IMG/VR virus record: IMGVR_UViG_3300030099_007666
Span: 1-20,395 of that record
Source of the DNA: a virus
Direction: 5' to 3' (one strand)
DNA length: 20,395 nt
This document shows positions 9,520 through 14,621 of this stretch, piece after piece; positions within the stretch are counted from its first letter, which is position 1; each line of letters begins with the position of its first letter. A model generated the notes under the pieces. It saw nothing but the letters and a program-made list of their open reading frames with translations, had not been told where the DNA came from and made no database searches. The translations under genes and the position numbers were made by a program.

Positions 9520-10161
9520 ATGTTGATGTCAAATCAATTCAGTTGGAAAACCAAATTCAAATCAATCATTGTGGTAGACGGTGAATTGTTTCCCAATGAA
9601 TATGATTTAAATATTTTCATATCAGCACACACTCCAGATCTTAAAGAACAATCAGATTATTTTGAAAGATTAAAAAATTTGTTTGAAAGGGTTTTCACTA
9701 ACACAATAACCACATGGCGTGACGAGCCATTGTATCCTGTTCTTAAAAAGCAAACAAATAACAGATTCGTTGAATTACCAAGACCACCCTATGATCAAAT
9801 AATGGCGGCCGTGTGTTTCTGTAAAGCCAATGCTGTGCTTGATAGCAAAATTATAATTAACAATCTAGAATTAAGCAGTTGGCAAGGAGACGGTATTACC
9901 TATTCGGTTGACAAGAACTCCCCAGAACTGCTACTATTAGATCAAAAGGATTGGTTCAGTAAAAAATTTAGCAAATTTGATCCATGGTGGTTGAGACCAG
10001 ATACTGCTACATATGATGAGGAACATGCAAAAGGCATCTATACAGGACACTTCAGTTGGAACAATTCAAAAATTCCAGTTGACAAGAAGCACGAAGACCA
10101 TGCTAAAATATTTGAGTTCAGTCCAAAGGTTTTAGATGGTGGAAAAAATAAAAACAAATAA
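9520..10161 (+). CDS. Conserved protein of unknown function
   Basis: The 213-residue product is not recognised. It is a mixed alpha/beta soluble protein, rich in aromatics ('SWQGDGITYSV', 'FSKFDPWWLRPDTATYDEE', 'IYTGHFSWNN'), with no TM segment or signal. It starts 'MLMSNQFSWKTKF'; the second methionine codon at 9526 is an equally possible start, because neither has a clear Shine-Dalgarno. The C-terminus is basic ('DGGKNKNK'), and its last 26 bases overlap the start of the DnaE-like gene. That overlap suggests coupled translation and perhaps a shared role with the downstream protein. Confidence 0.55.
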   Translation: MLMSNQFSWKTKFKSIIVVDGELFPNEYDLNIFISAHTPDLKEQSDYFERLKNLFERVFTNTITTWRDEPLYPVLKKQTNNRFVELPRPPYDQIMAAVCFCKANAVLDSKIIINNLELSSWQGDGITYSVDKNSPELLLLDQKDWFSKKFSKFDPWWLRPDTATYDEEHAKGIYTGHFSWNNSKIPVDKKHEDHAKIFEFSPKVLDGGKNKNK

Positions 10162-10657
10162 ACATGGCGATTGCATTTACACAGAGCAAGATGCAATAAA
10201 TTTACTTTATACAAATCCAAATTTCGACATCACAAAACTTTTCTTTGAATCTACTGACAAATACAACAACACAGTAAAAGAACTTGGGTTGGATTTTCCA
10301 AAAATACACAAGGTGCCAGAACGTGCAGATGTTGTAGAGTTTGATAGGGCTAACAGTGAACAATGGCACATGCCAGAACATTACAGTAAATTGAATGTCC
10401 TGCAATGGTTGTTAGACAAATGTCAGAATGACGAAGAACGGTTCCGAGTTCAAGCAGAATATAGTTTGTTTGAGGAGAAGAAATTCATCAAGGTGTTGCA
10501 ATTTTTGATTTATTTTGTTGACACACTAAGAGCAAACAATGTGGTATGGGGAGTAGGAAGAGGCAGTTCGGTGGCGAGTTTTTGCTTATTTTTGATTGGT
10601 GTACACAAAATAAATCCTATGTCGTACAATTTGGATCACCGTGAATTTTTAAGATGA
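10136..10657 (+). CDS. Truncated C-family DNA polymerase (DnaE/PolC palm)-like protein
   Basis: The product is 173 residues. Residues ~100-173 closely resemble the start of the palm domain of bacterial DNA polymerase III alpha. The key stretch is 'NNVVWGVGRGSSVASF' at ~134-149, against the family motif GPGRGSAAGS, followed by 'LFLIGVHKINPMSYNLDHREF', against the family pattern LGI-x-DP-x-Y-L-FERFL. The helix before it ('FEEKKFIKVLQFLIYFVDTL') corresponds to the family's GF-x-YFLIV segment. In true polymerases the catalytic PDxDxD follows immediately after FERFL; here the protein ends at that point ('EFLR' then stop). It therefore lacks the catalytic aspartates and cannot polymerise by the known mechanism. 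It overlaps the preceding gene by 26 bases. Homology is supported by motif order; function is unknown and could be nucleotide/DNA binding or a repurposed fold. Confidence 0.65.
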   Translation: MVEKIKTNKHGDCIYTEQDAINLLYTNPNFDITKLFFESTDKYNNTVKELGLDFPKIHKVPERADVVEFDRANSEQWHMPEHYSKLNVLQWLLDKCQNDEERFRVQAEYSLFEEKKFIKVLQFLIYFVDTLRANNVVWGVGRGSSVASFCLFLIGVHKINPMSYNLDHREFLR

Positions 10658-10663
10658 TAAGTA
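10657..10663 (+). promoter_or_regulatory. Possible variant late promoter box (ATAAGTA)
   Basis: ATAAGTA overlaps the stop of the DnaE-like gene, 20 bases before the next ATG, and differs from the late box by one base. A start of transcription near 10669 would leave the Shine-Dalgarno AGGAG (10673-10677) inside the leader. The same variant occurs before the minus-strand gene starting at 18300. Confidence 0.3.
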
Positions 10664-10683: not shown

Positions 10684-11067
10684 ATGGTAGCAAGAGCACC
10701 CAGAAAAAGAATGTACAGAACCATGCAAGGACGCATGATTGACATTGAAAAACTAAGAGGCGCCAACGAGGACGTACGAGCAGTTGGTAATATGAACGTC
10801 AATGCACGTGGAGATGTGCTGAGCAAAAGCGGACAAGTTGTCACGCCTAAGGCAAAAGTAATACAAAAATATTATCAGCAACCAAAAGGCAGAGTGGATG
10901 ACACTCCAAGAAGAGCCAAACCAACTCCGGCTAGAAAAATGCCTCCACAGCCAACAGCAACGCAGAAGACAGCTCCAGTGGCACCAAAAGCCCAACAACC
11001 GAAAGTGGCAAAAAAGACCACAACAGAGAAAAAAGGCATCGATGCCGCTCTTGACGGACTAGAATAA
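10684..11067 (+). CDS. Small basic protein with disordered Pro/Ala/Lys-rich tail
   Basis: The product is 127 residues with a good Shine-Dalgarno (AGGAG, 6 bases before the ATG). The first ~65 residues ('RAPRKRMYRTMQGRMIDIEK', then 'AVGNMNVNARGDVLSKSGQVV') look compact and conserved in style. From ~70 to 115 it is a low-complexity Pro/Ala/Lys/Thr/Gln tail ('KPTPARKMPPQPTATQKTAP', 'KVAKKTTTEKK'), ending in a short acidic helix ('GIDAALDGLE'). It is strongly basic overall. I recall similar small proteins near structural genes in T4-like marine phages, without a known function. Nucleic-acid binding or a head/tail accessory role is possible but not shown. Its 3' end contains the -35 element of the next gene's promoter. 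Confidence 0.6.
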   Translation: MVARAPRKRMYRTMQGRMIDIEKLRGANEDVRAVGNMNVNARGDVLSKSGQVVTPKAKVIQKYYQQPKGRVDDTPRRAKPTPARKMPPQPTATQKTAPVAPKAQQPKVAKKTTTEKKGIDAALDGLE

Positions 11068-11087: not shown

Positions 11088-11531
11088 ATGGGACAAATAG
11101 AAGACTTACAACACAAAGGATTTGGATCACATGGTGGTAAGCAATACACCGTGGACTACGACATCACGCCACTAAAGAAAAGAGTGTTGGTTTCGGACAT
11201 GCATTTTGGAGAAACAAAATCCAAAGGCGGAATAATACTTGTCGACGACGACGGATCGGCCGACGGTATACATCCTAGATGGGCCAAAGTTTACGCCATC
11301 GGCAAAGAACAGGAAGATGTAAAGGTTGGTGAATGGATAATGGTTGCACACGGACGTTGGTCTAGAGCATTCAAAGTAAAAAAGGAAGGCGTAGAATTAG
11401 AGGTTAGAATGATCGATGAAAATGATATTTTACTTGTATCACAGGAAGAGCCAGAACAGAACAGACACAAAGCAGGATATGTCAACACAGGTGGTATGCA
11501 ACAGATGACATCACTGCCAGGCAATGACTAA
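11088..11531 (+). CDS. groES: GroES-like co-chaperonin
   Basis: The 147-residue product contains a GroES fold at residues ~26-118. 'ITPLKKRVLVSDM' is the first strand, 'GETKSKGGIIL' at ~41-51 closely resembles the GroES mobile loop ETKSAGGIVL that docks on GroEL, and 'WAKVYAIGKEQEDVKVGEWI' is the GEVVAVG...VKVGD core. 'IDENDILLV' is the final strand. Bacterial GroES is ~97 residues; this protein has a ~25-residue N-terminal and a ~29-residue C-terminal extension. T4 supplies gp31 as a co-chaperonin to let host GroEL fold the major capsid protein, and this protein very likely does the same in the host cytoplasm. The mobile loop is more GroES-like than gp31-like. It has its own sigma-70-type promoter and its stop overlaps the next gene by 8 bases. 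Confidence 0.8.
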   Translation: MGQIEDLQHKGFGSHGGKQYTVDYDITPLKKRVLVSDMHFGETKSKGGIILVDDDGSADGIHPRWAKVYAIGKEQEDVKVGEWIMVAHGRWSRAFKVKKEGVELEVRMIDENDILLVSQEEPEQNRHKAGYVNTGGMQQMTSLPGND

Positions 11532-11938: not shown

Positions 11939-12979
11939 ATGCGTATAGGTTTTTGCTGTAAATGGCTTAACAGCCATTCTGAATTTGGTGGCATGAAAGT
12001 GAATGCCAAAGACAGGGACCTTAATGGCAGATCAACCACGATGCGTTGGCTGAGAGAACATCCAGAAGATGCAGTCCAAAGGCAGTGGGATATCATGAAT
12101 CATAATGCCACCGCCGCTAGAAAATTGGTGCAACGTGTTGGTTCCCTGCCACCCGAACGTAGGATGGTGAGACTAGGAAGTGAAATGTTGCAAGGCTACA
12201 CAGAAGCTAATTGGATAGACTGGTGGCAACAACCACACATCCAAGATCATTGTGAAAGGATATTTGCACCCGTTGGTGAAATGGCTCGCAAACTAGATGT
12301 AAAGGTCAGTTTCCATCCTGGGCAATTTTGTGTCCTAAGCAGTGAAAGTGCAGACATCAGAAAGAGAAGTGTAGAAGAATTTGAATATCATGTCGACATG
12401 GCCAGGTGGATGGGATTCGGCAAGTCATTCCAGGATGGTTGCAAGATCAACGTACATATCTCAGGCAGGCGTGGACCACAGGGTATTATTGATGCACTTC
12501 CTAAACTATCACCTGAGGCAAGAAATCTTATCACAATCGAAAACGACGAAATGGGTTGGGGGCTTGACGCCAGTCTTGAATTGGAAAAACATCTTGCATT
12601 GGTCATGGACATTCATCATCACTGGATACGAGATGAAGAATACATTGAAGCGACAGATGACAGGGTCAAAAGAGTGATCGATTCATGGCGTGGACAACGT
12701 CCAACGATGCACTACTCGTATTCGAGGGACGAACACTTGGCGGTTGCAAATCTTGGCGACAAGACGCACACCGAAATGCATGACATTAAGATGTTGCTTG
12801 AACGGGGTTGCAAGAAACAAAAACTTAGAGCACACTCCGATTTGTTACCAAATCGGGCAGTCAATGACTGGGCACTCAGTTTTAGTGAACATTTTGATAT
12901 ACAGACAGAGGCCAAAGGCAAAAACATAGCCGCGGAACAATTATATAGACAACACTTAGAAAATGCGGCTATAGAATGA
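11939..12979 (+). CDS. uvsE: UV-damage endonuclease (UvdE/UvsE family)
   Basis: The 346-residue protein matches the UVDE TIM-barrel family over its whole length (bacterial members are ~280-320 residues). Family landmarks appear in order: 'MRIGFCCKWLN' (strand 1), 'MVRLGSEML' at ~76-84, 'VSFHPGQFCVLSS' at ~123-135 with His126, 'INVHISG' with His173, 'LITIENDE' with Glu201, 'VMDIHHHW' with Asp224 and His226-228, 'TMHYSYSRD' with His258, and 'RAHSDLL' with His299. These His/Asp/Glu residues form the metal site. The enzyme nicks 5' to cyclobutane dimers and 6-4 photoproducts, starting a photolyase-independent repair route useful in sunlit surface water. The promoter suggests early expression. The TGA stop overlaps the ATG of a 39-residue ORF. 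Confidence 0.85.
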   Translation: MRIGFCCKWLNSHSEFGGMKVNAKDRDLNGRSTTMRWLREHPEDAVQRQWDIMNHNATAARKLVQRVGSLPPERRMVRLGSEMLQGYTEANWIDWWQQPHIQDHCERIFAPVGEMARKLDVKVSFHPGQFCVLSSESADIRKRSVEEFEYHVDMARWMGFGKSFQDGCKINVHISGRRGPQGIIDALPKLSPEARNLITIENDEMGWGLDASLELEKHLALVMDIHHHWIRDEEYIEATDDRVKRVIDSWRGQRPTMHYSYSRDEHLAVANLGDKTHTEMHDIKMLLERGCKKQKLRAHSDLLPNRAVNDWALSFSEHFDIQTEAKGKNIAAEQLYRQHLENAAIE

Positions 12980-13694: not shown

Positions 13695-14621
13695 ATGAAA
13701 GACCTTTGGGTAGAAAAGTATAGACCAAAAACGTTGAAGGAATATGTTGTTAGGGACGAAGCACAACGTAACCAAATACAAACATGGATTGACGATAAGG
13801 CCATACCGCACTTGCTGTTAAGTGGTGCTCCGGGCGTGGGTAAAACAACACTGGCAAAGGTTTTGTTTCAGGAACTAGATGTAAGCAGTTATGACATACT
13901 GGAGATAAATGCATCAAGAGAAAATTCAGTAGACACTGTGAGAGAAAAAATAAATTCATTTGTACAGATAATGCCTTTTGGTGCGTACAAATATGTGTTA
14001 CTGGACGAGGCTGATTACATGAGTCCGAACGGACAGGCCGCACTTCGTGGTGTGATGGAAATGTATCATACATCAGCAAGATTTATTCTAACTTGCAACT
14101 ACCCGAACAGGGTGATTCCTGCACTGCACAGCAGGTGCCAAGGCTTCCACATGGAAACAATTGACAAAAATGAATTCACGGCAAGGACAGCAGAAATTTT
14201 GATTGCGGAACAGATAGAGCCAGACATAGAAGTGCTAGACACATATGTAAAAGCAAGTTATCCTGACCTGAGAAAGTGTATCAACATGATACAGCAGAAT
14301 TGTAGAGACGGCAAACTGATGCCACCAAAATTGGGTGACTCAGGACAGCAGGATTATAGGTTACAGATGGTTGAACTATTCAAAGCAGGTAAAATTAATG
14401 AAGCAAGAAAACTTGTGTGTGCTCAAGCTAGACCCGAAGAGTGTGAAGAGATATACAGGTGGTTGTATGACAATCTAGATATAATATCCAAAGACGAAGA
14501 CAATCAGGACAAAGCAGTGTTAATAATAAAACAGGGATTGGTAGATCATTCGTTTGTTGCTGATCCAGAAATAAATTTAGCTAGTGTCATGATCAAATTA
14601 GCAAAGTTGTCAAATGGGTAG
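13695..14621 (+). CDS. 44: Sliding-clamp loader ATPase subunit (T4 gp44 / RFC small-subunit type)
   Basis: This is a 308-residue AAA+ protein of the RFC/gp44 clamp-loader family, with length typical of gp44 (~320). The N-terminus 'LWVEKYRPKTLKEYV' is the RFC box. Walker A 'GAPGVGKTT' lies at ~44-52 and Walker B 'VLLDEADYM' at ~101-109. Sensor 1 is 'FILTCNYPNRV' at ~130-140, and the arginine finger 'SRC' is at ~146-148. The C-terminal helical region ('KLVCAQARPEECEEIYRWL') is the oligomerisation collar. With gp62 it would load the gp45 clamp onto primed DNA for the phage polymerase. In T4 and cyanophages the gene is flanked by 45 and 62; here it stands among late genes and is followed by an 87-residue protein that I cannot identify as gp62. 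It overlaps that gene by 8 bases. Confidence 0.9.
   Translation: MKDLWVEKYRPKTLKEYVVRDEAQRNQIQTWIDDKAIPHLLLSGAPGVGKTTLAKVLFQELDVSSYDILEINASRENSVDTVREKINSFVQIMPFGAYKYVLLDEADYMSPNGQAALRGVMEMYHTSARFILTCNYPNRVIPALHSRCQGFHMETIDKNEFTARTAEILIAEQIEPDIEVLDTYVKASYPDLRKCINMIQQNCRDGKLMPPKLGDSGQQDYRLQMVELFKAGKINEARKLVCAQARPEECEEIYRWLYDNLDIISKDEDNQDKAVLIIKQGLVDHSFVADPEINLASVMIKLAKLSNG

Follow-up and report, generated by a model that had tools for sequence, protein, structure and literature searches.

What is a fragment of a bacterial-type replicase doing in a T4-like phage? The window (the whole stretch of viral DNA that was analysed, 20,395 nucleotides) contains a gene for a 173-residue protein that resembles part of DnaE, the family-C polymerase of bacteria, and that terminates just where the catalytic aspartates should begin. 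Such a piece is, as the original prediction remarked, surprising at first sight in a phage of a kind that uses a family-B polymerase; it is explained if it is half of a split polymerase. Our preferred reading, which we consider probable, is that the gene specifies the N-terminal, nucleotide-binding half (N-half) of a minimal family-C polymerase, and that it and a second protein (C-half) assemble into one palm/fingers active site.

The gene at 10136-10657 and its product

The open reading frame starts with ATG and stops with TGA, and an in-frame TAA follows directly. The match of its product to DnaE is far beyond chance. Residues 94-172 match PF07733 (DNA_pol3_alpha, the Pol III alpha NTPase domain) with E 1.1e-10, the best of the matching NCBIfam DnaE models gives E 7.7e-10, and PHROG 11127 ('DNA polymerase', 171 positions) is matched end to end (protein residues 8-173 against profile positions 10-171, E 1.2e-44). 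Searches with PHROG, Pfam and NCBIfam profiles gave no match to a PHP domain in the 173-residue protein. A GRGSxxxS loop had been predicted at about residues 141-148, and GRGSSVAS lies exactly there; this is presumably, as in DnaE, the loop that binds the triphosphate of the incoming dNTP. The helix that follows, LIGVHKINPMSYNLDHREFLR, had been described as LGI..DP..Y.L..R.FL; the helix is indeed present, and its supposed Asp-Pro is Asn-Pro. The chain ends ...NLDHREFLR, at the very point at which DnaE goes on with (M)PDxDxD (in agreement with the original prediction), and the three catalytic aspartates of family-C enzymes are absent from it.

Table 1. Positions of the gene, its parts and its neighbours in the window
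Feature	Position	Strand	Remarks
Upstream 213-aa gene	9520..10161	+	71/71 close relatives
Probable N-terminal half of a split minimal family-C (Pol III alpha-like) DNA polymerase	10136..10657	+	173 aa, PHROG 11127
Residues 1-74, N-terminal extension beyond the aligned DnaE region, least conserved part	10136..10357	+	
GRGSSVAS loop, residues 141-148	10556..10579	+	nearly invariant
Tandem stop TGA TAA at the conserved end	10655..10660	+	
Downstream 127-aa gene	10684..11067	+	PHROG 14844; 69/71 close, 50/53 distant loci
GroES-like co-chaperonin (gp31-like)	11088..11531	+	PF00166 E 3e-7; 63/71 close, 50/53 distant loci
gp44-type sliding-clamp-loader large subunit	13695..14621	+	PHROG 168 E 6e-78; 46/53 distant loci

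An AlphaFold2 model of the N-half (48-sequence alignment; pLDDT 90.3, pTM 0.73) suggests that its fold is that of the N-terminal part of the family-C palm. In VIA-align comparisons, residues 75-173 of the model superimpose on mycobacterial DnaE1 (5lew; Z 11.8, rmsd 2.4, 98 residues) and residues 76-173 on positions 278-393 of E. coli alpha (2hnh; Z 10.0), while PolC (9qpc) gives Z 11.2 and the best unrelated structure Z 3.8. The family-C palm homology claimed at the outset is thus upheld by profile and model alike, and the unrelated fold that was named as counter-evidence did not appear. The top nine Foldseek matches to the N-half in the PDB are all family-C polymerases, at E values none of which falls below 0.001; with the C-half, too, family-C polymerases come out on top and no E value is below 0.001, so it is chiefly the VIA-align results and the profile matches that carry the structural claim. 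Residues 1-74 are confidently folded in the model, yet lie outside the DnaE alignments; they are possibly a partner-binding module.

The break point is conserved. One scan of viral contigs yielded 57 relatives of the N-half at 65-92% identity, and a scan with an N-half profile confirmed at least 589 stretches. Comparison of length and stop position in related phages, the check that had been proposed, gave a clear result: in 117 of the 125 relatives with a readable stop, the protein ends exactly 33 residues past GRGS, and in the other eight within 34-37. This constancy extends to phages whose N-halves are 32-38% identical (SCTP-2, Paride, GAP32, 121Q and Atu_ph07). Homologues continuing into PDxDxD, which would have marked the present copy as a broken gene, are not found (0 of 125): no PDxDxD occurs in any forward frame up to 600 nt past the stop at the 125 loci, nor is there a single-frame fusion of N-half and C-half among them. 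The dN/dS of the N-half against three close relatives is ~0.11-0.14. Residues G139, G141-S145, V146, S148, E170, F171 and L172 are invariant in 48 diverse N-halves, and the mean frequency of the commonest residue is 0.89 around GRGS, as against 0.44 in residues 1-74.

The surroundings of the gene are also kept. The first 26 bp of the gene are shared with the end of the upstream gene, and this overlap recurs in 59 of the 71 close relatives; the succession of N-half, 127-aa protein, GroES-like protein and gp44 persists even in distant relatives (53 loci). AGGAG precedes the next ATG (10684), which bears out the Shine-Dalgarno sequence proposed for that gene. (A UvdE-like UV-damage endonuclease gene, at 11939-12979 with PF03851 E 1e-27, lies between the GroES-like and clamp-loader genes of the window; it is present in 42 of 71 close relatives and in none of 53 distant loci.) A broken or frameshifted gene is rejected on account of the fixed stop, the dN/dS, the gene order and the lack of a dnaE remainder downstream; 10136-10657 is a defined, well-conserved short gene, as first supposed.

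The second half and its distribution

The catalytic aspartates are to be found elsewhere. The fingers model PF17657 matches, weakly, 190-217 aa frames of related phage records, and it was through these matches that the C-half was identified; PF07733, in 11 related records, convincingly matches the N-half alone (two further matches are weak and sub-threshold). PHROG 11778 matches the C-half proteins, about 190-215 aa in length, nearly end to end. The C-half of Atu_ph07, which reads MKNIPDIDIDFYDRD..., starts at PDxDxD. The C-half motifs come in DnaE order: MPDIDIDF, K-x-D (which we take to be K553-x-D555 of E. coli alpha), ALIRP (the IRP motif) and KKSHAxAYA. A C-half profile aligned to DnaE retains this order from MPDIDIDF (5lew 413) onward at weak sequence similarity (E 3e-4); in an alignment of C-halves, D3, D5, K66, D68 and R135 do not vary. 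Methionine directly precedes (P)DxDxD in 73 of 85 C-halves, so that the M of the DnaE MPDxDxD motif appears to serve as the C-half start codon. The distance from DxDxD to K-x-D is ~60 residues, compared with about 150 in E. coli alpha, which implies that the thumb is missing or reduced.

For a marine C-half, AlphaFold2 gave a model with pLDDT 89. The full length of the model can be superimposed on Taq (3e0d 461-838, Z 9.7) and PolC (3f2b 971-1361, Z 9.5), and its residues 1-189 align with 400-781 of E. coli alpha (2hnh, Z 8.3). The structural similarity of the C-half to DnaE and PolC is moderate (Z 8-10, rmsd 3.7-4.6; best unrelated structure 3.2); Foldseek also places family-C polymerases on top. 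Since the N-half ends at position 393 of E. coli alpha and the C-half starts at 400, the two abut on alpha. No intein-like extension is seen where the N-half ends or where the C-half begins; splicing is therefore not expected, and association would be non-covalent. A clamp-binding tail on C-halves was considered and rejected: an SYxFS-like tail, unlike the tails of gp43, is present in just 22 of 85. Erwinia Huxley-type records match the C-half with E 0.2-4, which was put down to chance. Several Rak2-like phage records annotate the C-half as 'putative membrane protein' (CBB_287, L311:6035-6685), likely a misannotation.

Both halves are present in all seven reference phages, in all five viral contigs of at least 180 kb, and in two contigs found by way of the C-half (465 and 181 kb). 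Their genes are far apart, at map distances of 11-182 kb (N-half and C-half at 13.3 and 44.3 kb in 121Q, 213 and 247 kb in GAP32, 58 and 241 kb in Atu_ph07, 68 and 79 kb in Slicko01), and the C-half gene typically lies near uvsW-, gp61- and gp41-like genes. A phage collection holds 60 records with an N-half (E < 1e-8) and 63 with a C-half; among the C-half matches listed, 59 of 60 are also in the N-half list, the exception being PP728206, a 109-kb record. Nine of ten related genomes checked have a family-B polymerase. Alishewanella phage Slicko01 (L064, L145), at 141 kb not a jumbo phage, carries both halves; its family-B polymerase is apparently in two frames (578 + 322 aa).

The window is a 20-kb fragment, and neither a C-half nor a family-B polymerase lies within it; nor are both halves together on any contig of its closest clade, these contigs being fragments of up to 103 kb. 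Because the window and its closest contigs are without the C-half, pairing in this lineage is argued from a collinear relative and from MAG binning. The relative, G002 (228 kb), has both halves and is broadly collinear with G005, a contig of the window's clade. Its arc at 29-46 kb, with uvsW-, C-half-, gp61- and gp41-like genes (names assigned by visual inspection of the sequence), has matches only among C-half contigs, and its gp44 and family-B polymerase arcs only among window-clade contigs; G005 encodes an 887-aa family-B polymerase homologue, 62% identical to that of G002. Direct joining of the window-clade contigs G005-G010 to the C-half contigs G021-G026 failed: the two sets have no overlap and represent complementary arcs of G002.

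As to binning, the Pelagibacter MAG bin to which L301 belongs includes an N-half 69% identical to that of the window, a gp44 93% identical, and a C-half that shares 85% identity with the one on contig G021; in the Rickettsiales bin to which L302 belongs the corresponding values for N-half and C-half are 61% and 76%. Such evidence is circumstantial: the phage contigs of a bin may belong to different phages, and two N-halves are present in the Rickettsiales bin. (N-half phage contigs L301, L302, L304 and L305 are binned in Pelagibacter, Rickettsiales and Neomarinimicrobiota MAGs, a weak hint of hosts or else contamination.) The window's clade would be expected to have a C-half in one copy, of the MPDVDIDFFDRDGVLKLFKHTP type.

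A predicted active site in two chains, and its alternatives

The two halves are homologous to family-C polymerases, the break between them is invariant, they co-occur, their models tile on single-chain DnaE, and the sequence is under selection. All this is consistent with the catalytic aspartates having been not lost but placed in a second gene, far off in the genome. N-half and C-half would bind one another non-covalently, with the GRGS loop of the former keeping the triphosphate of the dNTP next to the aspartates of the latter that bind metal; the C-half would supply all three catalytic aspartates and the fingers, and the active site would be complete only upon association. The predicted pair, devoid of a PHP domain and with its thumb absent or reduced, may extend primers as an accessory polymerase beside the family-B gp43, its probable tasks being the filling of gaps, repair, or a share of lagging-strand synthesis. 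That very many environmental T4-like phages have, as a second polymerase beside their family-B replicase, a working PHP-less two-subunit family-C enzyme of ~370 residues with its active site formed in trans is a more tentative proposition, to which we give slightly less than even weight. A literature search of incomplete coverage found no report of experiments (biochemistry, interaction) on the split pair.

In some marine contigs a minimal Pol III in one piece is encoded as well, and its presence might render the split pair superfluous in them. This polymerase of ~563 aa (L246:1435-3159, L244:1507-3195 and L245, on contigs G021, G035 and G026) has no PHP domain, contains TRGSAGSS...DLPDVDIDF, and matches PF07733 with E 8e-43 as well as fingers. 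Its gene, ~5-6 kb from the split C-half gene, represents a second family-C enzyme in some marine contigs.

What else might the halves be? They could form a complex that is not a processive polymerase but a specialised nucleotidyltransferase, or an accessory factor that serves the gp43/gp44 replisome in a nucleotide-dependent way. The lack of a PHP domain, of most of the thumb and of everything past the fingers would fit such a role, as would the presence of a full family-B polymerase and the location of the N-half gene near the clamp loader and of the C-half gene near primase and helicase; retention of all catalytic residues, GRGS in the N-half and D3, D5, K66, D68 and R135 in the C-half, speaks for a polymerase instead and makes this alternative unlikely, if still the strongest of those considered. 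Interference with the host replicase, suggested in the original prediction, would have the N-half act alone, mimicking the DnaE palm as a decoy or an inhibitor; it does resemble that palm and is devoid of catalytic aspartates. Such a role is improbable, and the suggestion found no support: every sufficiently complete genome checked has a matching C-half, and the most conserved part of the protein is the catalytic GRGS loop, for which a decoy has no obvious need. Moreover, the contacts that alpha is known to make with tau, epsilon and the clamp do not lie in the palm.

The further suggestion of a lone dNTP- or DNA-binding protein is not supported either. For a palm fold domesticated as a virion component, one can cite the genes annotated as structural that lie nearby in some jumbo phages; the N-half (CBB_328) and C-half (CBB_287) of phage CBB are both missing from the 55 virion proteins identified by mass spectrometry, and absence from that list, although not proof, argues against a virion role and leaves it very improbable. 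Decay of a captured dnaE into a truncated pseudogene would account for the presence of just a small part of DnaE, but not for a stop position kept across very divergent phages, a low dN/dS, a preserved gene order and the lack of any dnaE remnant downstream; its likelihood is negligible.

Relation to known polymerases

The split polymerase has a precedent. The account of group 2.2 jumbo phages in Iyer et al. 2021 (PMC7824862), in the part of it concerned with Pol III, already describes or predicts a split enzyme consisting of a short N-terminal NTP-binding protein and a separate C-terminal Mg- and template-binding protein, with the genes far apart and a family-B polymerase in the same phage. 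PHROG 11127 and PHROG 11778 match the halves described there, and the window's standalone N-terminal protein likewise ends before PDxDxD; unlike those jumbo isolates, the window, itself a 20-kb fragment, comes from a T4-like lineage of marine phages. Added here to that account are this marine lineage, the constancy of the break, the methionine at the C-half start, the tiling on solved DnaE structures, the genome-wide co-occurrence, and virion data that speak against a structural role. Pectobacterium phage CBB encodes a homologous N-half of nearly equal length, with the same stop and the same GroES-gp44 neighbourhood; this protein, CBB_328, was reported to resemble Pol III alpha but to be truncated (172 vs 1120 aa; Buttimer et al. 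2017, PMC5259590). The authors noted the truncation alone; the partner CBB_287 is annotated as 'putative membrane protein'.

Together, the halves share with bacterial DnaE and PolC the palm helices, GRGS loop and FL helix (N-half) and the PDxDxD, K-x-D and fingers motifs (C-half); they differ in being two chains, in having no PHP domain and a missing or reduced thumb, and in ending with the fingers. Cyanobacterial split-intein DnaE is also a family-C polymerase made from two genes, with, as far as is known, a different break point; the phage halves, in contrast, have no intein-like extension at the junction. Matches to PHROG 7513 (461 aa) run to ~444-452, near its end, and this may be another DnaE-like protein that ends close to the same point.

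A specific two-protein hypothesis can thus take the place of a truncated polymerase of unknown purpose, and annotations can be corrected, both of C-halves filed as 'putative membrane protein' or 'hypothetical' and of N-halves filed as 'alpha subunit'. An active pair would rank with the smallest family-C polymerases and would imply that the active site of such an enzyme is divisible between two chains; it would also raise the question of why T4-like phages keep a bacterial-type polymerase beside their family-B replicase.
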